From positions 2,112,381 through 2,176,380 of the forward strand of contig NZ_LN555523.1 in assembly GCF_900015215.1 (NCBI RefSeq): a stretch of 64,000 nt of DNA. Reading direction: 5' to 3'. The DNA comes from Romboutsia ilealis. GTDB lineage: Bacteria; Bacillota; Clostridia; Peptostreptococcales; Peptostreptococcaceae. The position numbers and the translations under genes are program-made. This document shows positions 12,358-51,738 of the stretch, piece by piece (positions within the stretch are counted from its first letter, which is position 1; each line of letters opens with the position of its first letter). The notes under the pieces were generated by a model. It made no database searches. It was not told the DNA's origin and worked only from the letters and a program-made list of their open reading frames with translations.

Positions 12358-12786
12358 TTATTCAGGCAAGTTTATTTTTTTTGTCATAACTACTTTTGTC
12401 CCTTCATCCTTTATTGAACTTACCGTTACATCATCCATAAAACTTTCCATAACAGTGAATCCCATTCCTGATCTTTCAAGTTCTGGTTTTGATGTGTAAA
12501 GTGGTTGCATAGCCATTGAAATATCTTCTATACCATGTCCTCTATCTTCTACTACTACTTTTATAGTACTTTTATTTATTTCACATCTTAAATATACAAA
12601 TTTTGAATCATCTTCATCATACCCATGTATAATAGAATTTGTAACAGCCTCTGATACAGCAGTTTTTATATCTGCTAGTTCATCTAATGTCGGGTCCAAT
12701 TTTGCAGCAAAAGATGCAACTATAACTCTTGCTAAGCTTTCATTTTCAGACTTTGCAGAAAATTTTACTTCCATAATATTATTCAT
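12358..12786 (-). CDS. spoIIAB: Anti-sigma F factor SpoIIAB (serine kinase)
   Basis: A 142-residue GHKL-fold ATP-binding protein that binds SigmaF and phosphorylates SpoIIAA. The N box is [11 protein letters not shown], the G1 box [10 protein letters not shown], and the G2 region [24 protein letters not shown] lies nine bases before the ATG. It sits between spoIIAA (13-base gap) and sigF, the conserved order. Confidence 0.97.
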
Positions 12787-22649: not shown

Positions 22650-22678
22650 TTGATTAAACTGTCGAACTTTGTTATTAT
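22650..22678 (+). promoter_or_regulatory. Promoter of small RNA candidate 1
   Basis: TTGATT, 17-base spacer, then TATTAT extended by TGT. The expected start of transcription falls at about 22685, immediately before a hairpin. Confidence 0.65.
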
Positions 22679-22685
22679 AAATATA

Positions 22686-22800
22686 TGGTTATCCCCCTGA
22701 TAACCTTAGTAAAATCTCTATTCCCAATACCCCTTTAAATGAATAATTTATATTCATTTATGGCCTACTTCACGATCGGATGCGAAGTAGGTTTTTTTAT
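22686..22800 (+). ncRNA. Small RNA candidate 1 of a tandem pair (C-rich loop)
   Basis: A roughly 115-nt unit with no reading frame. Order: hairpin 22687-22705 (GGTTAT stem, loop CCCCCTG), an unpaired C-rich stretch with TCTATTCCC and TACCCC, a second stem at 22737-22759, then a terminator (CCTACTTC at 22764, GAAGTAGG at 22784, T7). It is preceded by a good promoter. The first half is almost identical to the unit 183 bases downstream, while the 3' halves differ. C-rich loops of this kind in Gram-positive sRNAs pair with Shine-Dalgarno sites. No Rfam family recognised by me. Confidence 0.65.
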
Positions 22801-22832
22801 TTTATATTTTTTCATATTTTTTTGAAAAACTA

Positions 22833-22861
22833 TTGATTTTAGTGTCGAACTTTGTTATTAT
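22833..22861 (+). promoter_or_regulatory. Promoter of small RNA candidate 2
   Basis: Same design as the first copy: TTGATT, 17 bases, extended -10 TGTTATTAT, but with a diverged spacer start, arguing that the promoter is conserved by selection or recent duplication. Confidence 0.65.
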
Positions 22862-22868
22862 AAATACA

Positions 22869-23008
22869 TGGTTATCCCCCTGATAACCTTAATTAAAATC
22901 TCTATTCCCAATACCCCTTTTGAACGGATAGACTTTATATCCATTATTGTTAAGTTGACAACGGAAGTCAATTTAGCGAAAAAAGAGCTTCCCCAAGCTC
23001 TTTTTTTT
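22869..23008 (+). ncRNA. Small RNA candidate 2 of a tandem pair (C-rich loops)
   Basis: About 140 nt. The 5' half repeats copy 1: hairpin 22870-22888 with loop CCCCCTG, then TCTATTCCC and TACCCC. The 3' half is unrelated to copy 1: a small GGATA/TATCC stem, a TTGAC/GTCAA stem near 22955, and a terminator whose stem AAAAGAGCTT/AAGCTCTTTT closes on a CCCC loop (22981-23004), giving a further C-rich loop. No open reading frame is visible. Together with copy 1 it fills most of the 700-base gap between the desulfurase and asparaginase genes; 22447-22640 shows nothing else. Confidence 0.65.
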
Positions 23009-35609: not shown

Positions 35610-37538
35610 TTATTCTCCTAATTTTGATTTAATCGTTGGAAATTGCTCTATATTTGTATGTGGTAAAAAACATGCTGATATAAATTCATCCATATATGTA
35701 GGATAAACACTTAATTCAACATATGTTATTTCACTTCCTATTTCTTGAAGCTTTTTCTTTGCATCTTTACTTATTAATGCAAGATAAGAACCTACTAATG
35801 AACTATTTCCTATATATATAAACTTCTCTCGTTCTATATCTGGGAGTAAACCTATTAATATTGAGTTTTCTATATCTAGGTTATTTCCAATTCCACCAGC
35901 TATATATACTTTGTCTATTACACTAAAATCCATACCTAAGCTTTCTATTAAAACTGAGGCTCCTGAATATATCGCGCCTTTAGCTTTTATAAAATTATCT
36001 ATATCAACTTCATTTATAGTTATATCCTGATCTAAATTATATTCTTCTTTAAATGCTAATACATATTCGCCTGTCTCATACTCATTAAATATTATTCTTT
36101 CATTGTCTATATCTCTATGTATTTTACCTCTTCTATCTATTATTCCAGTAAGTAACATCTGACATATTAAGTCTATTATACCTGAACCACATATTCCTAT
36201 AGGAGAAACATCCCCTATTGTTGTAAGAGTTGGTTTTAAAGTTTCTTTGTCTATTTTTACTTTTTCTATAGCTCCATTTGAAGCTCTCATTCCACAACTT
36301 ATTCCTCCACCTTCAAATGCAGGACCTGCAGAACAAGCGCAACTCATCATATAATCTCGGTTTCCAAATACTATCTCTCCATTAGTACCTAAATCAATGA
36401 ATAGTACATTTTCTTCACTAGACCAAATACCTGCCGATAATACGCCCGCAGTGATATCTCCGCCTACATAACTTGCAACAGAAGGCGCTATAAATACATA
36501 TGCACTATCATTAATATTTAACCTTACATCTTTTCCTATTAATCTAGGAGATTTTAAAAATGGTGGTATAAATGGTTCTTGTCTTAAGAAATCTGTATAT
36601 ACTCCTAAAAATAGACTTGTCATAGTTGTATTTCCTGCTACTACAAGGCTTACAACATTATCTTTATCTACGCTATTTCTAGTATAGATTGAATCTAATA
36701 ACGGATTTATAGTTTCTTCTACTACAGCTTCATTTAATTCTTTTAATCCATTTTTCTTTGTTGAATATACAATTCTATGTATGACATCTGCTCCATATTT
36801 TATCTGAGCATTTCCAGATGAAGCTTTATCTACAATTTCTTTTGTATATAAATCAACTAAACATATAACTACAGATGTTGTTCCTATATCTATGGCAACT
36901 CCATAAAGCTTATTTTCTGTATTTCCTGATTCTATATTAAGTATAGTTATTTTATTTTTCTTTTTAATGTACGTTATAGTTACTTTAAAATTATCTTCTC
37001 TTATTACTGTAGGGACTTTTCTTAGTAATTCTATAGTGAAATCTATTTCATCATATCCTAAATGATTTCTTACATATCTTTCTATTCTATCAATATCACT
37101 TATATTATCATCTAATGTTGGTTCATCTATCTCTATATAAGTTTTTACAATATTAGTCTTAAACTCAAAATTATTTTCTTCAATTATCTTCTTTGCTCTA
37201 TCAAAAACTTCCTTATCTTTTTTCTTATCACTACCTTCTATTTTCATTCCATGCATAGATGCTGATAATTTTGAAGGTACTTCTATATCAATATCTTCTA
37301 TTACTTTTGTATTACATGCTAATATATACCCTTGATTCCATTCCTCATCTTTAATATGATGAGTTTTCTCTGTATCAACTTTCCCTTTAATTAATCTTAC
37401 CTTACATTTCCCACAAGATACATTTCCATTACAGGGTGCATCTATAAATATTTCTGCATCTCTTGCAACATCCAGTAATTTCTCTCCCTTATTACAGTAA
37501 ATCTCTTTATTATGTGATGTAAAAGTTACTTTCACCAT
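35610..37538 (-). CDS. Reductive activator of corrinoid iron-sulfur protein (RACo)
   Basis: ATP-dependent activator that re-reduces Co(II) of the corrinoid iron-sulfur protein to Co(I). The N-terminal [2Fe-2S] domain has Cys ligands in APCNGNVSCGKCK and ACNTK (about residues 35-76). The middle is a linker, and the C-terminal ASKHA ATPase domain has GVAIDIGTTSVVICLV and DLGTNGEIVFGN phosphate loops and IYIAGGIGNN-type VYIAGGIGN. The ATG at 37538 with GGGGGAA upstream is chosen over a TTG at 37553. It lies just downstream of gcvH in the acs cluster. Confidence 0.92.
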   Translation of the reverse strand: MVKVTFTSHNKEIYCNKGEKLLDVARDAEIFIDAPCNGNVSCGKCKVRLIKGKVDTEKTHHIKDEEWNQGYILACNTKVIEDIDIEVPSKLSASMHGMKIEGSDKKKDKEVFDRAKKIIEENNFEFKTNIVKTYIEIDEPTLDDNISDIDRIERYVRNHLGYDEIDFTIELLRKVPTVIREDNFKVTITYIKKKNKITILNIESGNTENKLYGVAIDIGTTSVVICLVDLYTKEIVDKASSGNAQIKYGADVIHRIVYSTKKNGLKELNEAVVEETINPLLDSIYTRNSVDKDNVVSLVVAGNTTMTSLFLGVYTDFLRQEPFIPPFLKSPRLIGKDVRLNINDSAYVFIAPSVASYVGGDITAGVLSAGIWSSEENVLFIDLGTNGEIVFGNRDYMMSCACSAGPAFEGGGISCGMRASNGAIEKVKIDKETLKPTLTTIGDVSPIGICGSGIIDLICQMLLTGIIDRRGKIHRDIDNERIIFNEYETGEYVLAFKEEYNLDQDITINEVDIDNFIKAKGAIYSGASVLIESLGMDFSVIDKVYIAGGIGNNLDIENSILIGLLPDIEREKFIYIGNSSLVGSYLALISKDAKKKLQEIGSEITYVELSVYPTYMDEFISACFLPHTNIEQFPTIKSKLGE

Positions 37539-37603
37539 ATCTAATTCCCCCAATATGCTTTTCTAATATAAATTTAGCATATATTATATTTATAGGTATC
37601 AAT

Positions 37604-37648
37604 AAGGAGTATGAAAGATTTGCGTGCACTCAATCCTTTCATACTCTT
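37604..37648. terminator. Hairpin between gcvH and RACo genes, possible weak terminator
   Basis: AAGGAGTATGAAAGATT and AATCCTTTCATACTCTT form a long stem with two mismatches. The minus-strand exit has no clean T run, so it may only partly stop the long Wood-Ljungdahl transcript, or may mark mRNA processing. Confidence 0.45.
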
Positions 37649-37655
37649 ATTTTAA

Positions 37656-38030
37656 TTAATCTATACTAGCTTCGTAACTCTTTGAATTTAATAAGTTTTC
37701 TAACTCATCTTCATCAGCTACTTTAACTTTCACTATCCATGCATCATATGGATTTTCATTTATATATTCTGGTTCATCATCTAATTTTTCATTTATATCG
37801 ACAACCTCTCCAGATACCGGAGCTATTAAATCTGATGCTACTTTTGAGGATTCAACTACGCCGTACTCTTCACCTCGGTTTAATTCATCCCCAATCTCTG
37901 GCATTTCAACAAATAGTACTTCTCCTAATTGATTTTGAGCATAGTCTGTTATTCCTATATATGCAAATTCGCCATCTATTTTAACCCATTCATGTTTGTC
38001 AGTATATTTTAGATTTGGTATAACTTTCAT
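37656..38030 (-). CDS. gcvH: Glycine cleavage system H protein
   Basis: A 124-residue lipoyl carrier. The lipoylated Lys is in GVVESSKVASDL (about residue 63), within EYGVVESSKVA. The other glycine cleavage genes are not in the window; here it is the last gene of the acs operon, along with a dihydrolipoamide dehydrogenase gene in the same operon, as I recall for the C. difficile cluster. The two may link methylene-THF to glycine metabolism. GGGAGG precedes the ATG. Confidence 0.95.
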   Translation of the reverse strand: MKVIPNLKYTDKHEWVKIDGEFAYIGITDYAQNQLGEVLFVEMPEIGDELNRGEEYGVVESSKVASDLIAPVSGEVVDINEKLDDEPEYINENPYDAWIVKVKVADEDELENLLNSKSYEASID

Positions 38031-38053
38031 AGTAATCCTCCCGATATACTAAA

Positions 38054-40180
38054 TTACATTAAATATTCCATTGATAATGCTGGGTGTCCTTTTTCTTCTA
38101 AAAATGCCAATACTCCTTCAGAATCACTAGCTATAGTCTCATCACATATCATATCTACAAAGTTTTCTATACCAGTCATTTCTTTAACTGTAGCATTTAA
38201 TTTATCAGCTACATAGTCTTTTAATTCTTTCGGCATCCAAACTATTCTTTCTGGTCCGCCCTCTGCATAAGCAAACTTTTTAGAAGATATGAAATGTCTT
38301 CCGTGTCCCATAAATCCTGGAGTTTGAACCCCTCCACCTGTCATAGAAGCAAGTTCTCCAAATGTCATACCAACAGGAGTTATTTGAGAGAATTCTCTAT
38401 TTACTATAATAAATCCGTTAGCTTCAGGCATTATACCGCAAATACATTCAAAACATCCACATGAAGTCATTGGATCTTCAAGTATAGAATATAATGTAAC
38501 ATTTTCAACAGCACCTTGAGATATCTCAGATACTGTATTATCAACTGATTGCCATTTTCCTAGTCTATCATCTAGGCACTCACCTTTAACTATAGGTTGG
38601 CAAGGTCCAGTTGGATCTAGTTCTTTAGTTGCCTTAGCATCTAACCAACTAACCGCTCCACAAAGTCCAAGCCTTTCAGGAGTAACAACACAAACATGTG
38701 CTGGTGCGAAAGATTGGCAAAGGTTACAAGAATAGAACTCTTCAACACTTTCATCAACTAATGAAGCTAACCTTTCATCTCTAGCATCGTATCTAGTTAT
38801 AGCTTGAGATTTTAATTCAGAAACTTTTTGTTCATCTGTTACTATTGTTATTTCACACTTATCAACAACAGATTCAAATTCATCTCTCATTTTAGCATAT
38901 AAAACTTCTCCTATATGCTCTAATCTAAATCCTTTTTCATAAGCATCTTTAGATATTCTTATCCAAGACATATCTCTCTGACCAACATGCATTACACCTT
39001 CTATGTAGTTTAAGAAGTAATGTAATCTTCTTTCAAGAACTGGTTCAAAGTCTTCTTGCATCGATTTACCTGCTATATTAACTATAATAGCAAGTGGTAA
39101 TCTTACTACACCATTTGATTCTACTTCATCTATATTAGGACCTATTACTGATATTTTATGGTCTTCAACTTCACTTAACTCTCTCTTTATAACAAGTTCC
39201 CAAGCTTCAGTTTTATTTCCACCAAATTCAGCAAACATGTCGTTCTTTCTAATTCTTTCACCTTCAAATGCAGCTGCAAATGATACTGGTATTGGTATAT
39301 CTGTTATTTTTATTTTTATTCCTCTAGCTTCTAATGAAGTTGCTACAAACTTATCATAATCCTTTTGAGTCAATAAATTCATTGGAACTTCTAGAACTGT
39401 TTGATCAGTTATAACTGGAAATCCTAAAGCTATAGCTCCAGCTCCAGCAGATATAACTAATTCACTTAATGGTCCAAATGCATTTACGAATGCTGGAACT
39501 CTCTTAGAAGTATATTCTAATAATCCTGGTAAATCCCCTGGCGTTAAATTTCCAAATATTAATGCCGCTCTTACTGCAACAGATACTACATGTATAACTG
39601 ATGTTACATCATATCCTAAAGGTATAACCCTTAGTTCTAACCCCATTTTTATTCCAGCTTCTATAACTTGATCTATTACTTTACCAACTAAGAAAGTAAG
39701 TAAACCTTTAGCTTGGTAATCTTTTATTATTTTAGATGCAGTTTCAGCGTCTGGGCATTCTCCAAGAACGACTGCAACACCTGGTATATCTCCTGTAACT
39801 AGTGGAACACCAAGTGATCTTATTATAGGGTCAGTTATATGACCTGTGCAAGGTTCACTGTATGGAGCATCGCTAGTTGCATATTTTATAGCCTCTATAA
39901 CTTCAGCTGCAAGTGCTGTAGCTAATCCTGAATTTAAAGCATGTTCTAATAAATGAGTTTTATTTATTAAGCTTTCTACTATTTCAAGAGCACCTTCTAA
40001 GTCTCCTAAACAGTTCATTTTTTTCCCTGTAGCTGCATATATACACGGTAACGAATATGCAGTATCAGGGAATGATACCGTATGCTCTCTTCCATTTGAT
40101 TCTATTGCTTGATTTAATAAACCTCTTGCAGCTTCTAAAGCTTGCTCAGATCCTGTAAAAATTATATTATATAGGTTCAC
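38054..40180 (-). CDS. acsB: CO-methylating acetyl-CoA synthase, beta subunit
   Basis: Forms acetyl-CoA from CO, a methyl group and CoA at the Ni-Ni-Fe4S4 A-cluster. The cluster cysteines appear in SCNLCQSFAPAHVCV, LGLCGAV and SCGCFECICGIMPEANG (about residues 485-575). Length 708 fits bacterial AcsB. The start codon is GTG with GGGGGGG nine bases upstream. It follows acsE and precedes gcvH in the operon. CO comes from CooS at the start of the operon, and nickel loading is probably by AcsF. Confidence 0.97.
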   Translation of the reverse strand: MNLYNIIFTGSEQALEAARGLLNQAIESNGREHTVSFPDTAYSLPCIYAATGKKMNCLGDLEGALEIVESLINKTHLLEHALNSGLATALAAEVIEAIKYATSDAPYSEPCTGHITDPIIRSLGVPLVTGDIPGVAVVLGECPDAETASKIIKDYQAKGLLTFLVGKVIDQVIEAGIKMGLELRVIPLGYDVTSVIHVVSVAVRAALIFGNLTPGDLPGLLEYTSKRVPAFVNAFGPLSELVISAGAGAIALGFPVITDQTVLEVPMNLLTQKDYDKFVATSLEARGIKIKITDIPIPVSFAAAFEGERIRKNDMFAEFGGNKTEAWELVIKRELSEVEDHKISVIGPNIDEVESNGVVRLPLAIIVNIAGKSMQEDFEPVLERRLHYFLNYIEGVMHVGQRDMSWIRISKDAYEKGFRLEHIGEVLYAKMRDEFESVVDKCEITIVTDEQKVSELKSQAITRYDARDERLASLVDESVEEFYSCNLCQSFAPAHVCVVTPERLGLCGAVSWLDAKATKELDPTGPCQPIVKGECLDDRLGKWQSVDNTVSEISQGAVENVTLYSILEDPMTSCGCFECICGIMPEANGFIIVNREFSQITPVGMTFGELASMTGGGVQTPGFMGHGRHFISSKKFAYAEGGPERIVWMPKELKDYVADKLNATVKEMTGIENFVDMICDETIASDSEGVLAFLEEKGHPALSMEYLM

Positions 40181-40226
40181 TCTATATCCCCCCCTTTTTA
40201 GGCTTTTTCAATTATATTTTTATATC

Positions 40227-41039
40227 TTATATGTTAAATGCAAATGAACCTTCATTTAACTCTAAAAATGAGTCTGCATATAGAGAAGCTCCTCTTATTA
40301 TGTCACAAGATTTTACTGTTCTCATTAATCCTTCATCACAAGGATTTACTATAGCTGAACTAAATCCATTTGCCATAGCCATTGCTAAAAATGCACTGTC
40401 AAGTATTGGTCTTACATGTTTTGGGCATCCATTAGATACATTCGATAATCCTCCTGTAGTTAATAATCCCATTTCTGTCATCATTCTTATAGCTTCTAAA
40501 ACTTCTACTTGCTTATCCTGCATTCCTTTTATAACTAAGCATAATGGATCAAATAACATATCTTCAGGTTCTAATCCTACCATTAGACCTTGCTCTAACA
40601 TTTCTTGGCAATAAGCCATACGCTCATCATTATCTTTTGGTATACCTTCTTTAGCGCATAAAGCTATAACCTTAGCTTCATATTCTCCTGCTAAATCTAT
40701 TAAATCTAATCTTGAACCTGCATCAGCAGAATTTATTATTGGTTTAGCATGAGTTCTATTATATACTTTAAGTCCCGCTTCTATAGCTTTTCTATTTGCA
40801 GTATCTAAAGCTAAAGGAACATTATTAAACTCTTTTTGAAGCAATTGAACTCCCCAAGTCATTAAATCTTCTCCATCTCTTTCAGCAGGACCTATGTTAA
40901 AATCTATATAGTGCGCTCCAGCTTCTAATTGCTCCTTAGCTCTTTTTAATATTGGTTCAGGATTTCTCTCAGCTAAAGCTTTTCTTATTACTGGTGATAT
41001 ACAGTGTATTCTTTCACCTATTATCATAAACTTTTCCAT
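40227..41039 (-). CDS. acsE: Methyltetrahydrofolate:corrinoid/iron-sulfur protein methyltransferase
   Basis: TIM-barrel methyltransferase of 270 residues that passes the methyl group of CH3-THF to the cobalt of AcsC/AcsD. The pterin-binding region is seen in YIDFNIGPAERDGEDLM, LALDTANRKAIEAGL and GLSNVSNGCPKH. The ATG at 41039 follows AGGGGGATAA, the exact complement of a 10-base portion of the twin sRNA hairpins. It sits between acsC and acsB. Confidence 0.96.
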   Translation of the reverse strand: MEKFMIIGERIHCISPVIRKALAERNPEPILKRAKEQLEAGAHYIDFNIGPAERDGEDLMTWGVQLLQKEFNNVPLALDTANRKAIEAGLKVYNRTHAKPIINSADAGSRLDLIDLAGEYEAKVIALCAKEGIPKDNDERMAYCQEMLEQGLMVGLEPEDMLFDPLCLVIKGMQDKQVEVLEAIRMMTEMGLLTTGGLSNVSNGCPKHVRPILDSAFLAMAMANGFSSAIVNPCDEGLMRTVKSCDIIRGASLYADSFLELNEGSFAFNI

Positions 41040-41120
41040 TTGATTTATCCCCCTATAAGTTACTTATTATATTTTGTAACAGTAACTAAATGATATTTAA
41101 CTACAATTTGAATTTATATA

Positions 41121-42494
41121 CTATGCATTTGATACAGCTTCTCGCTTAGCTTTATATTCTTTTAGGAACTTCGGTATCTCCATAGATTCTTCTGTTCCTA
41201 TTATTACATTCCATCCTGGTAAATTATCTTCTATATCTCCTTTTAATACAGCAACTTTTCCTGGTATTATTAAATCTCTATTCTTAGTCATCTCTTCTAT
41301 TTTACTTTCTTTTATAAATTTAGCTATACTACTTCCACTAAACTTACCTGCAGACCAAGCAGTTAATACAGAATATCCTCCTGCATCTGGTATTGCTAAG
41401 TATGTTGGAACTTTAGATCTTTCTATATCTCCTGATACTATGAAATAAGTTAATGCAAAGTCAACAGTAACTATTACTGGTGAATTTTCATCTGCATTAT
41501 TTATTGAGTAAACTTTTGGTTCAACTCTCATTGGCCTTTGTGGATCAGTGTATATATTTTGTCTTAATGCGAATAATGGTAATGCTTTTGAGTAATCTAT
41601 GTCATCTATTACTATTATAGATCCATATTTTATTGTAAATATTGATGATATGGCTACTTCCATTTGTGGGTCGTTATTTGATAGTTTGTTTGCAAATACT
41701 ATTGACGGGTATCCAAATGTTCTGTCTTGTTCTTTTAAAGCTATTCTTCTAACTTGAACAGCATTTGTAAATGTATCTTTTATATTTTCTCCTGTTACAT
41801 CTAATAATAATTCTCTATATCCTAATCCTTGAATTGCTTCTATAGTAGAGTATAACTCTTCTAAGTTAGCAGCCTTTACACCTAGAGCTAATTTAAGATC
41901 TTTTACTAACTCAACCATTCCCTTGTAATTTTCTTTATTAGCCCCATAAACTATTGGTTTTTTATCTTTTAATATTTCTATAGCTTCTTTAGCTATATCT
42001 ACATCTTCACATACTATTATATGAGTTACATCTAATCCGCTTTCGTTAACTCTATTTACTAAGTTTAAGAATCCATCTTTATTATAGCGATATTCTAAAA
42101 CTACCATTTCAGCTTTCATTTCTTCGCCTATTCTTATATAGTTAACAGCTTTTATATTAGCTATTTTAAAATCTATTTGTTCATTAGTCATAGAATCATC
42201 AAATGCTACTGCATATCTATTTCTATTTACTAATGTTTTTTCATGTCTAAATAATACTGTTTCAGCGCCTAATTCATACTCAGAAGTTCCACTTCCTACT
42301 TTTAAAGTTCTCATTAAAGGTGCTGTCGCTTCTGATAATTTTGCTATTGAATCATCAGACATATGTGGACACTTACTTACTTCTACGGCTCCTGAAGCAA
42401 CTTTCATAGAGAAAGCCATACAAGTTGGAAATCCACAATCCTTACAGTTTTTCTTTGGTGTTAATTTAAATATATCTAAAGCTTTTAATGCCAT
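41121..42494 (-). CDS. acsC: Corrinoid/iron-sulfur protein, large (gamma) subunit
   Basis: A 457-residue subunit. The N-terminal [4Fe-4S] motif is CKDCGFPTCMAFSMKVASGAVEVSKC (Cys positions about 17-42). A TIM-barrel middle and C-terminal corrinoid-binding domain follow, with PDAGGYSVLTAWSAGKFSG. With AcsD it carries methylcobamide between AcsE and AcsB. AGGGGGA precedes the ATG. Confidence 0.96.
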   Translation of the reverse strand: MALKALDIFKLTPKKNCKDCGFPTCMAFSMKVASGAVEVSKCPHMSDDSIAKLSEATAPLMRTLKVGSGTSEYELGAETVLFRHEKTLVNRNRYAVAFDDSMTNEQIDFKIANIKAVNYIRIGEEMKAEMVVLEYRYNKDGFLNLVNRVNESGLDVTHIIVCEDVDIAKEAIEILKDKKPIVYGANKENYKGMVELVKDLKLALGVKAANLEELYSTIEAIQGLGYRELLLDVTGENIKDTFTNAVQVRRIALKEQDRTFGYPSIVFANKLSNNDPQMEVAISSIFTIKYGSIIVIDDIDYSKALPLFALRQNIYTDPQRPMRVEPKVYSINNADENSPVIVTVDFALTYFIVSGDIERSKVPTYLAIPDAGGYSVLTAWSAGKFSGSSIAKFIKESKIEEMTKNRDLIIPGKVAVLKGDIEDNLPGWNVIIGTEESMEIPKFLKEYKAKREAVSNA

Positions 42495-42522
42495 TATTTT
42501 TCCCCCTAACCTTACAATTTAA

Positions 42523-43467
42523 TTAAGCTAACGCACTAACTAATTCTTTTATAGTCTCTACTGATTTTGGATGACGAAGTATAACCGCATTTGCTCCACA
42601 AACTAAAGCACTTGCTGCAGTAGATACTTCCATATTTATACCTCTTTGTTCTGCACATCCCCATTGTGGTTCATCTTCAATGCTTGCTACAGATTCTTTA
42701 ACATGCCAAGATTCAAATGAAACTGGAGTTACTATAGGCATTTGTAATGTTTTATCATTTTGACCAAATGCGGCAAGTCTAATTCTATCCATAGTAGATG
42801 CAACATACTCATATCCGTAACCAACAGCCGAGCATCCTACTTGCATAACTATATTTTCAGGTTTAACACCCAATTGATTTAATAATACGTTTAATTGTTT
42901 AGCTAGGTTTATATCAACCGAAGATTCAGCTACTACTTTATGATTATACGCCATTGTAGATGCAGCTCCAACTGCTTTGTAATTATCTTCTGTAGCTGAT
43001 AAAAATAAACAGTTATTTCCATCAACAGCTTGAGCTATCTTTTCAAATACCTTAGCATCTTTTTCATGATTTCCACACCCTGCTATAACCATAGGTAACT
43101 TAACTGATTCAACTACATTTTTAGCAACTTTAGCACATTCTTCTGGACTTCTATCTAATCCATTTGGATCAGAACTTTCAAGCCTTAAACATATAAAGTC
43201 TGGTTTTAAATTTTCCTCTATGTATTTAGCCCATTTAACTGGACAATCACAAACATCTTTATACATTTCTTTAAATTCATTAGTCCATCCTTCTGGATAT
43301 ACATCTAACATTTCTATTCCCACTTTTGGGGTATTTCCAGTATCTCCATCAAAGCTATAAAATGGTAAAGTACTTTCTCCACCTATTTTTATTGCCTTTT
43401 CCCCTCTCCCTATTTCTACTTCTGATATCTTTCCAGAATATTTTTGAACAGACATCTTAAATGCCAT
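42523..43467 (-). CDS. acsD: Corrinoid/iron-sulfur protein, small (delta) subunit
   Basis: A 314-residue TIM-barrel subunit paired with AcsC. Typical runs are FICLRLESSDPNGLDRSPEE, VIAGCGNHEKDAKVFEKIA and EPQWGCAEQRGINMEV. The ATG at 43467 follows AAGGGGGATAA, again matching the twin sRNA loop complement. It lies 28 bases upstream of acsC. Confidence 0.96.
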   Translation of the reverse strand: MAFKMSVQKYSGKISEVEIGRGEKAIKIGGESTLPFYSFDGDTGNTPKVGIEMLDVYPEGWTNEFKEMYKDVCDCPVKWAKYIEENLKPDFICLRLESSDPNGLDRSPEECAKVAKNVVESVKLPMVIAGCGNHEKDAKVFEKIAQAVDGNNCLFLSATEDNYKAVGAASTMAYNHKVVAESSVDINLAKQLNVLLNQLGVKPENIVMQVGCSAVGYGYEYVASTMDRIRLAAFGQNDKTLQMPIVTPVSFESWHVKESVASIEDEPQWGCAEQRGINMEVSTAASALVCGANAVILRHPKSVETIKELVSALA

Positions 43468-43486
43468 AGTTTTATCCCCCTTAAGC

Positions 43487-44257
43487 CTAATTTAATTCTA
43501 ACTTATTCATTATATCATTTATAGCTATCTTAGCTTTTGAATCCTCAGGTAAATTAACCAATGGTATTCCTGAAGAATCATATTCATATATCATTTCATC
43601 CATAGGTACTACACCTATAAGATTTAGATTATGTTTAGCAATTTCCTCTTTTATTCCTTCATTTAATTTTCCATTTGGAGCTTTATTTATAATTAAGTAT
43701 ATCTCTCCTACACTTAATTTTAATTCCCTCGCTAAATCTCTAATTCTAGCAACAGCCTGAACACTTCGTCTTGAACAATCACTAACTAATAAAAGTTTAT
43801 CTATGTGTTTTGTCGTTTTTCTACTTAGATGTTCCATTCCGGCTTCATTATCTATAACTAAATATTCATAAGCATCAGATAGTTTATCAGTTTGCTCTCT
43901 TAATATTCCATTTACATAGCAATAACAACCTTCTCCTTCAGATCTTCCCATTACTATTAAGTCATATCCATCGCCTTCTGCTAAACAAGTATTTAATCTA
44001 TATTGTAAATATTGAGCTTTAGTCATACCTCCTGGAAAAGCATTGCCTTGTTTTTCCCTTTGGTTAACTTCTTCTCTGATTGAACCTATAGTAGTTTCAA
44101 CCTCTATACCTAATACTTCATTTATATTAGCATTTGCATCTGCATCAACAACTAATACTGGCCCCTTATTATTAGCTGTTAGGTTATCAATTAAAAGCCC
44201 TGTAAGACTAGTCTTTCCAGTTCCACCTTTACCTGCCACTGCTATATTATATCCCAT
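43487..44257 (-). CDS. acsF: CooC-type nickel-insertion ATPase AcsF
   Basis: MinD-fold ATPase of 256 residues. The deviant P-loop VAGKGGTGKTSL at the N-terminus and the family region SEGEGCYCYVN with the Cys-X-Cys nickel/dimer motif are visible. AcsF proteins help load nickel into acetyl-CoA synthase. This is one of two CooC-type genes in the operon; its position before acsD argues for ACS, while the other follows cooS. Confidence 0.9.
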   Translation of the reverse strand: MGYNIAVAGKGGTGKTSLTGLLIDNLTANNKGPVLVVDADANANINEVLGIEVETTIGSIREEVNQREKQGNAFPGGMTKAQYLQYRLNTCLAEGDGYDLIVMGRSEGEGCYCYVNGILREQTDKLSDAYEYLVIDNEAGMEHLSRKTTKHIDKLLLVSDCSRRSVQAVARIRDLARELKLSVGEIYLIINKAPNGKLNEGIKEEIAKHNLNLIGVVPMDEMIYEYDSSGIPLVNLPEDSKAKIAINDIMNKLELN

Positions 44258-44315
44258 ATTAAGATTTCCCCCTTTTATTTGTCAAAACAGAGCTTTTAAT
44301 ATACTCTGTTTTGTA

Positions 44316-45713
44316 TTAAACTTTCGCCTTTTTTAATTTTGGAGCTGCATGAACACATTCACCATGCACATCGTGAAGAGCTTCCATTAAGCCTTCTGAT
44401 AACGTTGGATGTGCGTGTATAACATCTCCTACTTGCTCTACAGTTAATCCTAAATGTACTGCAAGTGATAATTCTGTTAATAGATCTGTTGCATGAGGAC
44501 CTACTATTGATGCCCCTACTATCTTGTCTTCACTATCTGCAAGAACTTTTATAAATCCTTGTATACGACCTATAGCTTGAGCTTTACCTAATCCTCTAAA
44601 TTCAAACTTACCTACATTATACTCAATACCTTCAGCATCTAACTGCTTTTGAGTTTTCCCAACAGCAGCAACTTCAGGTTCAGTATATACACATCTTGGA
44701 ACTGTTGTGTAATCTACTGTTTTATATTTACCAAAAGCATTTTCTGCAGCAACTATACCTTCTTTAGAAGCAACGTGTGCAAGCATTGGAGTATTGATTA
44801 AATCTCCTATTGCGTATATACCTTCTATATTAGTCTCAAGGTTTTCATTAACCACTATTTTACCTCGGTTTAACTCTATTCCTAATTCTTCAATTCCAGA
44901 TCCTTCAATATTAGGTTTTCTTCCTATTGCAACTAATACATATTGAGTATTTACCTTTTTTCCGTCTGATAATGTTGATACTACTTCGTCCCCTACTACT
45001 TCGCAAGAATCAACTCCACTATTTAGTAACACTTTAATTTTATCTTTTTTAAATTGTCTCTGCAACTGCTTCACAATATCTTTATCTTCATATGGTAATA
45101 GCTGTTCACCTCTTTGAACTATAGTAACTTCAGTGCCTAAAACTCCAAAGAACTGACCTATTTCACATCCTATTACCCCTCCACCTATTATTAACATAGA
45201 CTTAGGTAATTCAGAAAGTTCTAGCACTTCGTCACTAGTGATTATACGCTTTTTATCATATGGAAACATTGGAGGTACTATTGGAACAGATCCATTAGCT
45301 AATATTATTTTATCAGCTTTTATAGTTTCTATTGTTCCATCTTCTTTGGTAACTTCTATAGTGTTTTTATCTACAAGCTTACCAAATCCATTTACTAAAT
45401 TTATCCCTCTTTTTTCAAATAAAAATTCTATTCCACTTACTAATTGATCTACTATTTTATCTTTTCTTTTCATTACCGATAAAAAATCTGCAGTAATTTC
45501 TCCATCTATATTTATACCAAAGTCTTTGGCTTCTTTTATATTCATTAACATTGAAGAAGATGCAAGTAATGCTTTAGTAGGTATACAGCCAGCGTTTAAG
45601 CAAGTTCCTCCTACTTTTTTCTTTTCTATAACTGTTACTTCAGCTCCAAGCATCGCAGCTTTTATTGCTGCAACATATCCTCCTGGACCGCCCCCTATTA
45701 CTACTATTTTCAT
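44316..45713 (-). CDS. lpdA: Dihydrolipoyl dehydrogenase
   Basis: FAD/NAD disulfide oxidoreductase of 465 residues. It has the FAD loop GGGPGGYVAA, redox cysteines in GGTCLNAGCIPTK (about 42 and 47), NAD loop GGGVIGCEIG, FAD motif YAIGDL, and the C-terminal active-site His in HAHPTLSE. It re-oxidises the lipoyl arm of GcvH. The ribosome site GGGGGAATAGAT overlaps a stretch complementary to the second C-rich sRNA motif. Confidence 0.95.
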   Translation of the reverse strand: MKIVVIGGGPGGYVAAIKAAMLGAEVTVIEKKKVGGTCLNAGCIPTKALLASSSMLMNIKEAKDFGINIDGEITADFLSVMKRKDKIVDQLVSGIEFLFEKRGINLVNGFGKLVDKNTIEVTKEDGTIETIKADKIILANGSVPIVPPMFPYDKKRIITSDEVLELSELPKSMLIIGGGVIGCEIGQFFGVLGTEVTIVQRGEQLLPYEDKDIVKQLQRQFKKDKIKVLLNSGVDSCEVVGDEVVSTLSDGKKVNTQYVLVAIGRKPNIEGSGIEELGIELNRGKIVVNENLETNIEGIYAIGDLINTPMLAHVASKEGIVAAENAFGKYKTVDYTTVPRCVYTEPEVAAVGKTQKQLDAEGIEYNVGKFEFRGLGKAQAIGRIQGFIKVLADSEDKIVGASIVGPHATDLLTELSLAVHLGLTVEQVGDVIHAHPTLSEGLMEALHDVHGECVHAAPKLKKAKV

Positions 45714-45750
45714 ATCTATTCCCCCATATCACAATTAATTTTAGAATTTT

Positions 45751-46632
45751 TTATAATCCAGCTTCGTCTAATATTGCTGGAACATTTTCCTCTGCTCCAA
45801 TTGCCATTATATGAACACCATCACATAAATCTTCTTCTCTTAATTGCCTTATAAATTCTCCTGCCATCTTTATACCTTCTGATACCCAGTTTTCTTTTCC
45901 TACAGCTCTTAATCTTTCTATTTGTTCATCTGGAACAAATATACCTGGAACATTTGCAGTCATAAACTTAGCCATGCCTGGAGATTTCAAAGGTACTATA
46001 CCAGCTAATACTTTACAGTCCATATCTTTAGTTAATTTCCTAAATTCTCTCATATGTTCTATATCATATACAGCTTGAGTTTGGAAGAACTTAGCCCCTG
46101 CATTTATTTTCTTTTGCATCTTAATTAATTGTATTTCTATTGGAGCGTACTCTGGAGTGACTGAAGCTCCCAAATAAAATTCTGGAGATCCCTTTAACTC
46201 ATTACCAACTAAGTCTTTTCCACCCATTAAGGTTTCAGCCGTTTGAAGTATACCTATACAATCTAAATCAAATACACCCTTAGCTTGTGGATGATCTCCA
46301 ACTACTGTATGATCTCCAGTTAAAGCTAACATATTTTTTATTCCAAATACACCAGCAGATAATAGTTCCCCTTGTATAGCTATTCTATTTCTATCCCTAC
46401 CAGTTATTTGCAATACCGGTTCTAACCCAACATCTTTTAATAATTTACATGTAGCAAGTGAAGTAGTTCTCATGACTGCAGATTGAAAATCTGTAACGTT
46501 TGCTGCATGAACTCTTCCCACTAGTGGTTTAGCACATTCTATTAAATGTGAAAGGTCTGTTCCTTTTGGAGGTGCCATCTCAGTTGTAACTGCGAACTTT
46601 CCACTTTCTAATGTTTCTCTTAATAAGCTCAT
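45751..46632 (-). CDS. metF: Methylenetetrahydrofolate reductase, catalytic subunit
   Basis: TIM-barrel flavoprotein of 293 residues that reduces methylene-THF to methyl-THF. TTEMAPPKGTDLSHLI (with catalytic Glu), ALTGDHT and FFQTQAVYDIEHM are typical. It is paired with the zinc/FeS subunit MetV just upstream, as in acetogens. GGGAGG precedes the ATG. Confidence 0.95.
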   Translation of the reverse strand: MSLLRETLESGKFAVTTEMAPPKGTDLSHLIECAKPLVGRVHAANVTDFQSAVMRTTSLATCKLLKDVGLEPVLQITGRDRNRIAIQGELLSAGVFGIKNMLALTGDHTVVGDHPQAKGVFDLDCIGILQTAETLMGGKDLVGNELKGSPEFYLGASVTPEYAPIEIQLIKMQKKINAGAKFFQTQAVYDIEHMREFRKLTKDMDCKVLAGIVPLKSPGMAKFMTANVPGIFVPDEQIERLRAVGKENWVSEGIKMAGEFIRQLREEDLCDGVHIMAIGAEENVPAILDEAGL

Positions 46633-46668
46633 TAAAAATTTCCTCCCTTTATAACCTTTTAGAAGTCC

Positions 46669-47349
46669 TTATGCCTTTGCATTAGATTTTTGATTTTGTT
46701 TTTCTTTTAAATTTAAATATCTTGGATTGTTTTGTTTGGAGTAGTCTTTCATTGGTCTCATTTCTAAAAGATTATCTAATTGATTTATATCTTTTAATCT
46801 TTCATATATCATCACCCAGGCACAATCATTATCTTTACTTATCTCACACTTACCATTTTTAGCCCCACCACATGCACCATTTATTAATCCTTTAGCACAC
46901 ATAGTTACAGGGCATATTCCACCTGTCCATCCAAGCTCACATTCTCCACAAGCCTTACAGGCTTCTTCAAATTCTCCAACTCTCTTTGTCTCCCCTATAA
47001 ACATAGTGTTGTTTGCCGGATAAACGGGTATCTTTTTTAGATTTTTAACTATAGTTTGTGTTCCATCTCCACAAGCTAAAGATAAAACTGCATCTGCATC
47101 TGCTAATTCAGATTTTAATGACTTTAAATCTTTCTTAGATTTCAATAAATTGCATGCAGGATCTAATATAATATATCCTAAAACAGTTTTTCCCTCTGAT
47201 TCTAATACTTCTTTCATTTTAAGAACTTCTTCTTCACCACCACTTTTACAAGTTGCAGCACATTGATTACATCCAACTAAAACTACCTTTTCTGCATTTT
47301 TTAAAAATCCTAAGATTTCATCCATAGGCTTATTTTCAGAAATTATCAT
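46669..47349 (-). CDS. metV: Methylenetetrahydrofolate reductase, zinc-binding subunit MetV
   Basis: A 226-residue cysteine-rich partner of MetF. Metal ligands lie in GCNQCAATCKSGGEEEV, FEEACKACGECELGWTGGICPVTMCAKG and NGACGGAKNGKCEI. MetV-type subunits carry iron-sulfur clusters or zinc and link MetF to an electron donor. The ribosome-binding region GGGAATAGAG plus AT of the start codon is complementary over 12 bases to the twin small RNAs. It lies 28 bases after folD. Confidence 0.9.
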   Translation of the reverse strand: MIISENKPMDEILGFLKNAEKVVLVGCNQCAATCKSGGEEEVLKMKEVLESEGKTVLGYIILDPACNLLKSKKDLKSLKSELADADAVLSLACGDGTQTIVKNLKKIPVYPANNTMFIGETKRVGEFEEACKACGECELGWTGGICPVTMCAKGLINGACGGAKNGKCEISKDNDCAWVMIYERLKDINQLDNLLEMRPMKDYSKQNNPRYLNLKEKQNQKSNAKA

Positions 47350-47377
47350 CTCTATTCCCCCTAAAACTTACAATATA

Positions 47378-48250
47378 TTATTTATTGTTTTGAGCCTTAC
47401 AAGCCTTAACTACATGCTTAGCAAGTATAGATGATGTAACAGAACCTACTCCTGCAGGAACTGGAGTTATCATAGATGCCTTATCAAAAACAGCTGATGT
47501 ATCAACATCCCCACATAATTTCCCATCTTCATCAACATTTATACCTACATCTATTACAACTGCTCCTTTTTTTATAAAGTTTTCTTTTATCATTTTAGCT
47601 CTACCAACAGCAGCTATTAATATATCAGCTTCTGAAGTTACCTTTTCTAAATTTTTAGTTCTAGAGTGGCATATAGTAACAGTTGCATTTTCATTTAATA
47701 AAAGCATTGCAGTAGGTTTACCAACTACCATACTTCTTCCAAGTACTACTATATTAGCACCTTGTAATTCAACATTATAATGTTTTAAAATTTCTACAAC
47801 TGCAGTTGGAGTACATGGTGGGAATCCTGATGTGTCACCTTCCATTATTTTTGCAGAATTTATTGGACTAAAGCAATCTACATCTTTTTCTGGTGATATA
47901 ACGTATTTTATTTCTTCTTCATTTAACTGTTTAGGAAGTGGTCTAAAGCATAATATGCCATGAATATCTTTATTTTCATTTAAATTTCTTAAAGCCTTTT
48001 CATATTCTTCTTGTGTTATATCCTCTGATAATTCTATAACTTCAGTTTCTATACCTATAGTTTGACATCTCTTTAATGCCCCTCTTTCGTAAGCTAAATC
48101 ATTCCCTTTAGCTCCTACTCTAACTATAGCTAACTTAGGATTTATACCTTCTTTAACTAATTCATTAACTTCTTTTATTAAATTCTCACTTATTTGATCA
48201 GCTACCGGCTTTCCTTTTATTATTTGACCTTTAGTTGCAGTTACTTCCAT
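47378..48250 (-). CDS. folD: Methylene-THF dehydrogenase/methenyl-THF cyclohydrolase FolD
   Basis: Bifunctional folate enzyme of 290 residues. The active Lys is in YERGALKRCQTIG (a variant of the usual YxxxK), the NAD(P) loop is VVLGRSMVVGKPTAMLL, and TPVPAGVGSVT closes the family signature. It interconverts methylene-, methenyl- and formyl-THF. A separate cyclohydrolase gene (fchA) lies upstream. Confidence 0.95.
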   Translation of the reverse strand: MEVTATKGQIIKGKPVADQISENLIKEVNELVKEGINPKLAIVRVGAKGNDLAYERGALKRCQTIGIETEVIELSEDITQEEYEKALRNLNENKDIHGILCFRPLPKQLNEEEIKYVISPEKDVDCFSPINSAKIMEGDTSGFPPCTPTAVVEILKHYNVELQGANIVVLGRSMVVGKPTAMLLLNENATVTICHSRTKNLEKVTSEADILIAAVGRAKMIKENFIKKGAVVIDVGINVDEDGKLCGDVDTSAVFDKASMITPVPAGVGSVTSSILAKHVVKACKAQNNK

Positions 48251-48323
48251 AAAAAATGCCCCCTTAAATTTTAATTTATATAATACACAAGTATATCTTG
48301 TATTAATTTTCTTATTTAAATAA

Positions 48324-48956
48324 TTATTTTACTAGAGCTTTTTCTACTTTAGCGTAAACTTCATCACATATTTTTACGCCTTCTTCTACTAAACTATTTA
48401 CTTCTTTTCTTATTGCTTCAACATATTCCATATCTTTTATCGAGTTTATATTTATTACTACGTTTAACTGACCACTAAGTATTGCAGCCCTTAAACATTG
48501 AACTCCAACACCTACATCACTTATAGCTAGCTTTGAACCTTTATCAACTAAATCTTCATGTAATTTTATAGCATCAAAGCATACTCTTACTATGTCTATC
48601 GGAACTTCACAAGCTACCTTTAATGCATTTTCCATAATCTCTTCTTTTATTTTCTTCTCTTCCTCAGTTGAATTAGGAAGTCCATAAGCTTTTGAAAGAG
48701 GTAGGAAATTTTTTGCATCTTTATCAATCATACTTAATAATTTCTTTTCTATTTCTCTTGCTTTTACTAATATTTCATTTACGCTTTCTTCATATTCAGC
48801 ATATTTTTTCTTTCCTATCGTTAAATTGCAAACCATACTACCTAAAGCCATTCCTATAGCACCAACTAAAGCTGCTGCTCCACCGCCACCAGGTACTGCT
48901 GACTTTGAAGCTAATACATTTACAAATTCAATACAAGTTTTTTCAGATATCTTCAT
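48324..48956 (-). CDS. fchA: Methenyltetrahydrofolate cyclohydrolase (formiminotransferase-cyclodeaminase family)
   Basis: Helical protein of 210 residues. The Gly/Ala-rich LASKSAVPGGGGAAALVGAIGMAL segment near the N-terminus and KLHEDLVDKGSKLAISDVGVG match cyclodeaminase-type FchA. It converts methenyl-THF to formyl-THF in the methyl branch. AAGGGGGA precedes the ATG. A strong palindrome separates it from fhs. Confidence 0.92.
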   Translation of the reverse strand: MKISEKTCIEFVNVLASKSAVPGGGGAAALVGAIGMALGSMVCNLTIGKKKYAEYEESVNEILVKAREIEKKLLSMIDKDAKNFLPLSKAYGLPNSTEEEKKIKEEIMENALKVACEVPIDIVRVCFDAIKLHEDLVDKGSKLAISDVGVGVQCLRAAILSGQLNVVININSIKDMEYVEAIRKEVNSLVEEGVKICDEVYAKVEKALVK

Positions 48957-48999
48957 GATTTCCCCCTTAAATCCCCTAAAGATACTAAATTACTATGTA

Positions 49000-49027
49000 G
49001 TGGGGTGTGGAAATTTCCACACCCCAC
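49000..49027. repeat. 28-bp perfect palindrome between fhs and fchA
   Basis: GTGGGGTGTGGAAA and its exact complement meet without spacer. Its GC-rich arms stand out from the AT-rich surroundings. No T run follows on either strand, so it is not a standard terminator; it could stabilise or process the mRNA or bind a protein. Confidence 0.85.
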
Positions 49028-49038
49028 ATTATTATTTA

Positions 49039-50715
49039 TTAGAATAATCCTGATATTATTCCATTTTCATCAACATCAATTCTTTCCGCAGCTGGAACTT
49101 TTGGAAGTCCTGGCATTTTCATTATTGCACCAGTTAACGCAACTATAAATCCAGCACCTGCTGATACTGTTAATTGTCTAACTGTTATTCTAAATCCTGT
49201 AGGTCTACCTAATTTAGTTTGATCATCAGTTAAAGAATATTGAGTTTTAGCCATACATATAGGCATATGTGAAAATCCTAATTTTTCTAATTTTTCTAAT
49301 TCTTTTCTAGCTTGAGGAGTAAAATCCACACCATCTGCTCCATATATCTTAGTAGCTATAGCATTTATCTTATCTTCTATACTTAAATCATCTTCATAGC
49401 AAAATTCAAATTCATTTGGTTCACTAGTTAATCTTATAACTTCTTTAGCTAGTTCAATTCCACCTTCTCCACCTTTTGCCCATACTTGAGATAAAGCAAC
49501 GTTAACACCTAATTCTTTACATCTTTCTCTTACTAAGTTTATTTCTGCTTCTGTATCCGTTGGGAATTCATTTATAGCAACTACTGCTGGTAACTTAAAT
49601 ACTTGAGTTATATTTTCAACATGCTTTAATAAATTTGGAAGACCAGCCTCTAAAGCTTCTAAGTTTTCATTGTTTAACTCATCTTTTGGTACTCCACCAT
49701 TGTATTTTAGCGCTCTTACTGTAGCAACTATTATAACTGCATCAGGCTTTAAATCAGCCATTCTACATTTTATATCTAGGAATTTCTCAGCACCTAAATC
49801 AGCACCAAATCCACCTTCAGTTACTACATAATCAGCAAAGTGCATAGCCATTCTTGTAGCTATAACAGAGTTACATCCATGAGCTATATTTGCAAATGGT
49901 CCACCATGAACAAATGCAGGTGTTCCTTCTAATGTTTGAACTAAGTTTGGCTTTAATGCATCTTTTAATAATGCAGCCATAGCTCCATTAGCTTTTAATT
50001 GCTCAGCAGTTACAGGCTCACCTTGGAAATTGTATCCTACTATTATTCTTCCTAATCTAGCTTTTAAGTCAACTATATCACTTGCTAAACAGAAAGCAGC
50101 CATTACTTCCGAAGCAACTGTTATATCAAATCCATCTTCTCTAGCTACACCATCTGCTCTTGATCCTAAACCATCAACAACATTTCTCAATTGTCTATCG
50201 TTCATATCAACACATCTTCTCCAAGTTATGCTTCTAGAATCTATTCCTAATTCATTTCCTTGATGAATGTGGTTATCTAGCATAGCAGCTAATAAATTAT
50301 TTGCAGCTCCTATAGCATGAAAATCACCTGTAAAATGTAAGTTTATATCTTCCATTGGAACAACTTGTGCATATCCTCCACCTGCTGCTCCACCTTTAAT
50401 ACCAAATACAGGACCTAAAGAAGGTTCTCTTAACGCAACTAATACATTTTCACCTAATTTAGATAATCCATCTGCAACTCCTATAGTAGTAGTAGTTTTT
50501 CCTTCTCCTGCTGGAGTTGGGTTTATAGCTGTAGTTAATATTAATTTTGACTTTTTACCGCCATTGTCTCTTTTTAATAAATTATAGTCAACTTTAGCTT
50601 TATACTTACCGTATAATTCTATATCATCTTCTCCTAGGCATAGCTTTTTAGCTATTTCTCTTATATCTTGTATTTTAGCCTCTTGAGCTATTTCAATATC
50701 TGATTTGAATCCCAT
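49039..50715 (-). CDS. fhs: Formate-tetrahydrofolate ligase
   Basis: ATP-dependent enzyme of 558 residues that activates formate as 10-formyl-THF, first step of the methyl branch. The P-loop is [13 protein letters not shown] (about residue 67), followed by [24 protein letters not shown] and [16 protein letters not shown] precedes the ATG. It lies 100 bases after cooC and is separated from fchA by a strong palindrome. Confidence 0.98.
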
Positions 50716-50817
50716 AATTTGTATCCTCCCCTATAATTTAAATATTTAATTTCACTATGTGTAAATTATTTATCCTTATTAAATAATCTATCTAAATAAT
50801 GATTTCTTTGTAGCATT

Positions 50818-51603
50818 TTAATTACAGGACACGCTTAAGCCCATCAACTTATTTTTTATTGCTTCAATTTGTTCTCTAGTTTCTTGGCTAGTGTCATATG
50901 GAGATTTATTACTTCTATCTGAATCTATAACATCTTGGTTATAATATATAAAGCCTAAAGCTTCTCCATCCTCTAAGTTAGACATTATAAATTCTTTATC
51001 TTCTTTATTTCTAATTTTGTTGCCTACGACAAATACTTGTTTAACACCTATATCTTTACCTAAACTTTTAACTTTTCTATAAGTTTGTAGACTTCTTTCA
51101 CCTGGTTCAACTACTACTATAAAGGCATCAACCCCCTGTGCAGTTCCTCTTCCCAAGTGCTCAATACCTGCTTCCATATCCATTACTACTACATCTTTAT
51201 TTTGTAATATTAGATGCGAGCAAAGCCTTTTTAATAATACATGCTCTGGACAAACACAACCTGAGCCACCAGAATCCACAGTACCTAAAGTAAGTAATCT
51301 AACACCATTGTATTCTTTACAATAATTTTTAGGTATATCATCTACCTTAGGATTCAATTTAAACATTTTATTAAAAGTTCCTGTTTCTGCAGCAGTTCTT
51401 TCTGAAACTAATTTTTTCATTTCTGATATTGGAACTATAGAATCATATACTTCTTTTGGAAATCCCAAGGCTAAACCTAAATTAGCATCAGGATCTGCAT
51501 CTACAGCAACTACCCTGTATCCATCATCTGCAAACATTCTAGACAACATAGAAGAAAAAGTTGTCTTTCCTACTCCACCTTTACCTGTTATCGCTATCTT
51601 CAT
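50818..51603 (-). CDS. cooC: CO dehydrogenase maturation ATPase CooC
   Basis: MinD-fold ATPase of about 261 residues that delivers nickel to CODH. Deviant Walker A TGKGGVGKTTF, GSGCVCPEHVLLK with the CXC nickel/dimer motif, and DMEAGIEHLGRGTAQGVD are present. The ATG at 51603 with AAAGGTGG upstream is chosen; the longer frame adds 22 residues with no site. It follows cooS by 140 bases. Confidence 0.95.
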   Translation of the reverse strand: MKIAITGKGGVGKTTFSSMLSRMFADDGYRVVAVDADPDANLGLALGFPKEVYDSIVPISEMKKLVSERTAAETGTFNKMFKLNPKVDDIPKNYCKEYNGVRLLTLGTVDSGGSGCVCPEHVLLKRLCSHLILQNKDVVVMDMEAGIEHLGRGTAQGVDAFIVVVEPGERSLQTYRKVKSLGKDIGVKQVFVVGNKIRNKEDKEFIMSNLEDGEALGFIYYNQDVIDSDRSNKSPYDTSQETREQIEAIKNKLMGLSVSCN

Positions 51604-51738
51604 ATTATACCACCTTTTGCTATAGATAAACCATACAATAATTTGCACATTTATCTTTTTTTTTATCATTTTGTACGTTTATTCATGAATATTATTATTT
51701 TTTTAATATCAAATATTCCATTTATATTCATATTATTA

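Follow-up and report, generated by a model that had tools for sequence, protein, structure and literature searches.

In a 64,000-nt stretch of the Romboutsia ilealis genome (contig NZ_LN555523.1, positions 2,112,381 to 2,176,380; hereafter the window), the gap between a gene for a NifS-like cysteine desulfurase (21265-22416, minus strand) and an asparaginase gene (23145-24137, plus strand) contains two tandem plus-strand units (22650-22798 and 22833-23008). A reading made from the letters alone (the sequence-only reading) had described them as twin small RNAs (sRNAs) with C-rich loops directed at Shine-Dalgarno (SD) sequences. This locus raises the question of whether the units are sRNA genes and, if so, which regulator controls them and which messages they control. 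Comparison with related genomes indicates that the units are paralogous members of an sRNA family that is real, conserved and absent from Rfam. The RNA family, its conservation, a box in its promoters and the G-rich sites that it matches are established by sequence comparison. The reading that we regard as rather probable is that of an order-wide family of anti-SD sRNAs under the control of Spo0A, with spo0A itself and the Wood-Ljungdahl operon as its main predicted targets.

Two paralogous units of a conserved RNA family

The two units were recognized, at the place where they had been described, as a pair of direct repeats, one of 90 nt with 89% identity (22625-22714/22808-22897) and the other of 27 nt with 100% identity (22710-22736/22894-22920). 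They share a block of ~95 nt that consists of a sigma-A promoter, the hairpin GGUUAUCCCCCUGAUAACC and a C-rich segment. The sequence-only reading had called this block almost identical, which holds for the near-perfect transcribed part but not for the whole block, whose identity is about 88-89% over its full length, with a variable upstream part. Both promoters comprise TTGATT, a 17-nt spacer and TATTAT preceded by TG, in agreement with the extended -10 that had been described, and this promoter is conserved across the order. In a consensus promoter scan, both scored 9/12, although the scan alone is weak because it found 14 sites against 7.9 expected. The 7-bp hairpin begins 8 nt past the -10 in both units and is followed by AUCUCUAUUCCCAAUACCCCUUU, consistent with its earlier placement at the transcript start (expected from the sequence at ~22684-22686 in unit 1 and ~22867-22869 in unit 2). 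When folding was compared with that of dinucleotide shuffles, z-scores of -4.5 (unit 1) and -6.7 (unit 2) were obtained, and none of 200 shuffles was equally good.

Downstream of the common block, the units are unrelated and have different stems and intrinsic terminators, as had been proposed. Unit 1 continues with a stem (AAAUGAAUA..UAUUCAUUU) and the terminator CCUACUUC..GAAGUAGG-U7, which is kept in the other genera that have unit 1. The 3' end of unit 2 is GAAAAAAGAGCUUCCCCAAGCUCUUUUUUU, and its terminator loop is also C-rich. With a promoter and a terminator of its own and no conserved open reading frame (ORF) of the kind that would point to a coding gene, each unit has the features of a gene for a trans-acting sRNA.

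A search with the unit in 61 relatives gave matches in 50, and family members were further sought using nhmmer and a covariance model. With the covariance model, which was built from 44 sequences and represents a kind of search that the sequence-only reading had recommended, the RNA was found in 99 of the 158 genomes of the order, including Clostridioides difficile. In a sample of 291 genomes from across the class, just one genome that does not belong to the order had a match. When named genomes were scanned for exact copies of GGTTATCCCCCTGRTAACC, at least 118 stretches were obtained, nearly all of them followed by the same C-rich segment. The matches listed include Romboutsia, Paraclostridium, Clostridioides, Metaclostridioides, Asaccharospora, Tepidibacter, Alkaliphilus, Natronincola, Anaerosolibacter, Tissierella, Anaerosalibacter, Anaerovorax, Emergencia, Hornefia and many metagenome-assembled genomes; one match (L092) looks like chance. 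Rfam lacks the family, and its annotation is feasible for a large number of genomes in a single step.

Conservation of the C-rich loops, on which the sequence-only reading had made its case depend, extends across the order, and the C-rich segments are nearly invariant while the terminators differ. The terminators and the spacer between the hairpin and the C-rich segment vary freely, also in length. This free variation speaks against a conserved protein and points to the hairpin loop and the C-rich segment as the working parts. Covariation is limited because the family sequence is so constant: variation in the inner stem is mostly one-sided, and the outer pair past a U-U mismatch alternates between GC (19) and AU (12). 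The covariation score was matched by only 3 of 500 shuffles.

A third, diverged copy is present in the R. ilealis genome (C1:579988-580067, minus strand; 31 bits and E = 0.002 with the covariance model). It has the Spo0A box described below, the hairpin (with a UUCCCCU loop) and more C-rich patches, and its type recurs in the family, conserved as a type of its own. Tandem twins occur in several genera (Romboutsia G000-G003 and also G009, G010, G013, G015, G020, G029 and G033) with separately conserved 3' halves, which supports the anatomy of a common 5' seed joined to unrelated terminators that had been taken as the mark of paired sRNAs. Most other members are of the unit-2 type alone or single copies, and Paraclostridium benzoelyticum has three tandem hairpins with a 198-nt spacing (L145 2558-2972). 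The twin arrangement may serve dosage or, via the different 3' halves, may confer different stability or extra targets. In addition, a GAUCGGA/AACGGA motif lies in loops of unit 1 (22774-22780), unit 2 (22960-22965) and the third paralogue, the stems of which are unrelated; this recurring motif could be a CsrA (GGA) site or a pairing site.

The Spo0A box and predicted G-rich target sites

TGTCGAA is the core sequence recognized by C. difficile Spo0A, the affinity of which is approximately tenfold lower after mutation of G2, C4 or G5 (PMC3485338). This exact sequence is present between the -35 and the -10 in both units. In the family, TGTCG lies ~27-28 nt before the hairpin in 87 of the 114 promoters, where mononucleotide shuffles give 0.24. 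Upstream of the -35, another box-like site was found in 24 (0.66 in shuffles); the two boxes are ~21 bp apart in several genera. Five genomes without the spacer site have an exact TGTCGAA or TTCGACA just upstream of the -35. No Rex or ResD-type site was seen by eye in the promoters, where the conserved TGTCG box is found. A candidate LexA box was rejected by eye, its spacing being wrong and its GAAC not conserved.

The presence of the box is associated with that of Spo0A in counts that treat genomes as independent and ignore kinship. Among RNA-carrying genomes, 75 of the 81 whose Spo0A is typical have the box, versus 5 of the 20 in which Spo0A is divergent or absent (P = 2e-9); when genera are counted instead, the corresponding numbers are 52 of 56 and 5 of 14 (P = 1.6e-5). 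Genomes that lack Spo0A also tend to lack the RNA: in the first 61 relatives, Spo0A is missing from 8 of the 11 that do not carry the RNA and from 4 of the 50 that do, and all sampled genomes of one genus (g5) have neither. These features suggest that Spo0A controls the two sRNA genes, and the location of the box in the promoter spacer suggests repression.

Targets were sought by a pattern search and in matched regions, a five-G SD being defined as a run of at least five Gs. The hairpin loop AUCCCCCUG is complementary to the SD of spo0A. In Romboutsia, the ribosome site of spo0A is AUUAAUAGGGGGAAUUUUA-GUG with the SD AUAGGGGGAAU, and the loop AUCCCCCUGAUAA is computed to pair with it at -15.3 kcal/mol. 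A five-G spo0A SD was found in 51 of 56 sRNA-carrying genomes versus 5 of 18 from other orders of the class (P = 5e-7). The carriers have AGGGGG, UGGGGGG or CAGGGGGG at this site, the last of which is complementary to UUAUCCCCCUG over ~10 nt. Four genomes of the order with a divergent Spo0A and without the RNA have GGAG-type spo0A sites.

The second predicted target is the Wood-Ljungdahl operon in the window (Table 1), whose GGGGG-bearing cistrons we take, from their layout and the known pathway, to be acsA, fchA, folD, metV, lpd, cooC, acsD, acsC, acsE, acsB and a reductive activator gene. For comparison, the operon was taken from 18 further genomes that carry the sRNA and from 20 that lie outside the order. 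Five-G SDs precede 185 of 260 Wood-Ljungdahl cistrons inside the order and 9 of 160 outside (P = 2e-44), a comparison in which we rely on the effect size rather than the P-value because neither the cistrons within an operon nor related genomes are independent of one another. Five outside operons with the same gene layout have five-G SDs in 3 of 69 cistrons. For individual genes, the numbers inside and outside the order are 19/19 versus 0/14 (acsE), 18/19 versus 0/22 (acsB) and 18/18 versus 1/5 (metV). In random 20-kb regions of sRNA-carrying genomes, five-G SDs were found in 40 of 310 genes (13%; P = 8e-48 versus Wood-Ljungdahl). The low rates outside the order and in random genes indicate that neither gene identity nor genome habits alone explain the five-G SDs. 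The conserved complementary sites at the start codons of spo0A and the Wood-Ljungdahl cistrons are those expected for a trans-acting anti-SD RNA, and suggest that the sRNAs block translation of spo0A and of this operon.

GGGGG SDs were also seen at the spoVG-like gene of the R. ilealis genome (L279) and at six of the 16 ORFs of a lysine-fermentation-like cluster (L441 4827-16555), which is a possible target operon. A formate-dehydrogenase-like gene, named by eye as was this cluster, also has a five-G SD.

A proposed switch and its alternatives

To our knowledge, C. difficile and its relatives do not have the phosphorelay of Bacillus, and how Spo0A is restrained during growth is an open question. 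We tentatively propose, with somewhat less than even confidence, a mutual-repression switch, shared by spore-forming clostridia of the whole order, in which Spo0A shuts off the sRNA and the sRNA silences spo0A and the GGGGG-tagged Wood-Ljungdahl operon, tying CO2/C1 metabolism to sporulation. Each unit would be transcribed during growth from its own strong sigma-A promoter and end at its own terminator. The loop AUCCCCCUG, together with the UUCCC and ACCCCUUU patches, which are single-stranded, would then pair with G-rich SDs and prevent translation initiation, perhaps with the help of Hfq, which acts in C. difficile (PMC10267692). Among the predicted targets, conservation is greatest for spo0A and most Wood-Ljungdahl cistrons, and other catabolic genes may be affected as well. 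Spo0A~P bound to the spacer box, most likely as a repressor, would switch off the RNA, which would be high during growth. Therefore, RNA and Spo0A would repress each other in a toggle that holds growing cells out of sporulation, and the RNA would throttle C1/CO2 metabolism. If this is true, an RNA with a Spo0A-site promoter and a spo0A-matching loop would represent an ancestral control layer, beyond single-species sRNAs, and the repeated GGGGG tag would mark the Wood-Ljungdahl operon, one cistron after another, for a single sRNA, which is rare. The tag also offers a directly testable handle on acetogenic metabolism. As far as the literature examined shows, the links to Spo0A and to the Wood-Ljungdahl pathway appear to be new.

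Several observations weigh against this proposal. The box is kept without a detectable Spo0A in G047 and also in G053, G386 and G388, which are possibly incomplete, and Spo0A is present but the box lacking in G005, G012, G026, G411, G429 and G432. The spo0A genes of G360, G367 and G411 have AGGAGG despite the presence of the RNA. Many RNA-carrying genomes lack the Wood-Ljungdahl genes, which therefore are not the sole reason for the RNA to exist, and no member of the order with these genes but without the RNA, the ideal control, was found. G-rich SDs could also be served by other C-rich sRNAs, several of which are present in C. difficile. Because the comparisons follow clade lines, their P-values overstate independence. 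Finally, although the spacer box suggests repression, activation is also possible.

If Spo0A activated the RNA, translation of spo0A would be subject to negative feedback, and the Wood-Ljungdahl enzymes would be shut down at sporulation. Such activation is compatible with the position of the box just upstream of the -35 in some lineages and with the paired boxes of several genera, but in most cases the box lies between a near-consensus -35 and an extended -10 spaced 17 nt apart, a position from which a bound protein would be expected to impede the polymerase, and near-consensus promoters should need no activator; we therefore regard it as doubtful. We also think it unlikely, and slightly more so, that TGTCG is read by another regulator, such as a redox or metabolic factor, in the same family with the same anti-SD mode. 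The Spo0A link would then be a coincidence of clade history, and the RNA a metabolic sparing RNA like RsaE/RoxS or IsrR. That the targets are mostly catabolic, cofactor-rich enzymes, that G047 retains its box and that several families vary in the AA of TGTCGAA would all fit such a factor, whereas the loss of the box together with loss or divergence of Spo0A at the genus level, and the exact TGTCGAA upstream of the -35 where the spacer site has been lost, point to Spo0A.

The remaining alternatives concern the targets and the nature of the elements. GGGGG SDs might be a lineage habit of ribosome-binding sites, with the C-rich RNA directed at something else, as the five-G sites in random genes of the same genomes and the five-G spo0A sites outside the order might suggest. 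However, the Wood-Ljungdahl rate is five times that of the random genes and such sites are lacking in this operon outside the order, which makes a mere habit quite improbable. We give hardly any credence to the possibility that the elements are leaders or small-protein genes rather than sRNAs. A 50-aa ORF does begin at the unit 2 hairpin, but it has no ribosome site, its ATG is located at the expected 5' end, relatives lose this ATG and length differences change the frame. Moreover, strong terminators follow directly, and the downstream gene varies among genera.

Known sRNAs and features of the window

No Rfam family, whether riboswitch, 6S or other, matches either unit at gathering scores, in line with the sequence-only reading. 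Sub-threshold matches (Phe leader, RefA9, snR63 and others) were judged to be chance. RsaE/RoxS acts on central and C1 metabolism, and the C-rich loops had been assigned to the RsaE type. This assignment is retained for the predicted action but not for homology: in a permissive search, the RsaE/RoxS model (RF01820) reached 21.7 bits against a threshold of 79 (E = 0.25), and the match was not recovered on a trimmed stretch or in 13 relatives. RsaE-like repeated seeds complementary to SDs are present as the UCCCCC loop, the UUCCC and ACCCC patches and the UUCCCC of the unit 2 terminator, and RsaE/RoxS is likewise a short sRNA that binds SDs through repeated UCCCC seeds (PMC9217828). The present family differs from it in scoring below the threshold, in its hairpin-first arrangement, in its Spo0A-box promoter and in its confinement, among the genomes searched, to one clostridial order plus one genome. 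Thus, its predicted action is RsaE-like, but it is apparently unrelated to RsaE.

Other sRNAs resemble the family in single respects. The LhrC family of Listeria consists of multicopy paralogous sRNAs with C-rich motifs, as here, but differs in sequence and is reported to be under LisRK control (PMC4132741). IsrR of Staphylococcus aureus is a small RNA that controls iron-containing enzymes (PMC11257911) and is itself iron-regulated; no sequence relation between it and the family was found. SpoZ of C. difficile and CsfG are sporulation-linked sRNAs of endospore formers, but CsfG, unlike the family here, is made in the forespore. SpoZ differs in being activated by RgaR through VirR-like sites (PMC10602386), and no RgaR/VirR sites as at SpoZ were seen by eye in the promoters. 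SpoY (nc020) of C. difficile pairs with the G-rich ribosome-binding site of spo0A and represses translation, and Hfq RIL-seq (RNA interaction by ligation and sequencing) revealed eight further partners of this site with the same profile (PMC10267692). SpoY, which is 5'UTR-derived, was rejected as the C. difficile counterpart because its protected positions (nt 30-41) disagree with the C-rich patches seen in the C. difficile member (L023, L089). RCd1 was also rejected, being located between CD1894 and CD1895, whereas the member was found beside iscS/thiI and an amino-acid ABC transporter.

Table 1. Features of the two units and predicted target genes in the window
Feature	Position	Strand	Basis or details
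Unit 1 promoter	22650..22678	+	-35 TTGATT 22650-22655, 17-nt spacer, extended -10 TATTAT 22673-22678
Unit 1 Spo0A box TGTCGAA in spacer	22660..22666	+	Sequence match, predicted site
Unit 1 5' hairpin GGUUAUCCCCCUGAUAACC, C-rich loop forming seed 1	22687..22705	+	Repeat, folding, family alignment
Unit 1 single-stranded C-rich segment UAAAAUCUCUAUUCCCAAUACCCCUUU (seeds 2 and 3)	22710..22736	+	Repeat, folding
Unit 1 intrinsic terminator: CCUACUUC stem, CACGAUCGGAUGC-type loop, GAAGUAGG, U tract	22762..22798	+	Folding
Unit 2 promoter	22833..22861	+	-35 TTGATT, extended -10 TATTAT 22856-22861
Unit 2 Spo0A box TGTCGAA	22843..22849	+	Sequence match, predicted site
Unit 2 5' hairpin, same sequence as unit 1	22870..22888	+	Repeat, folding
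Unit 2 C-rich segment	22894..22920	+	100% identity to unit 1
Unit 2 middle stem GUUAAGUUGAC..GUCAAUUUAGC with AACGGAA loop	22949..22977	+	Folding; stem retained in relatives
Unit 2 terminator, 13-bp stem, UUCCCC in loop (fourth C-rich patch)	22978..23008	+	
Wood-Ljungdahl/carbon monoxide dehydrogenase-acetyl-CoA synthase (CODH-ACS) operon, predicted target	35610..53655	-	GGGGG SDs in 11/15 cistrons, complementary to the hairpin loop
spoIIAB-like anti-sigma factor gene, possible further target	12358..12786	-	GGGGG SD

The only Rfam matches in the window, both away from the units, are one tRNA and one cobalamin riboswitch (31108-31286, minus strand; 109.7 bits). The latter lies between an ABC transporter operon on its upstream side and genes for a response regulator and a histidine kinase (28781-30888) on its downstream side, an unusual location for a cobalamin riboswitch.
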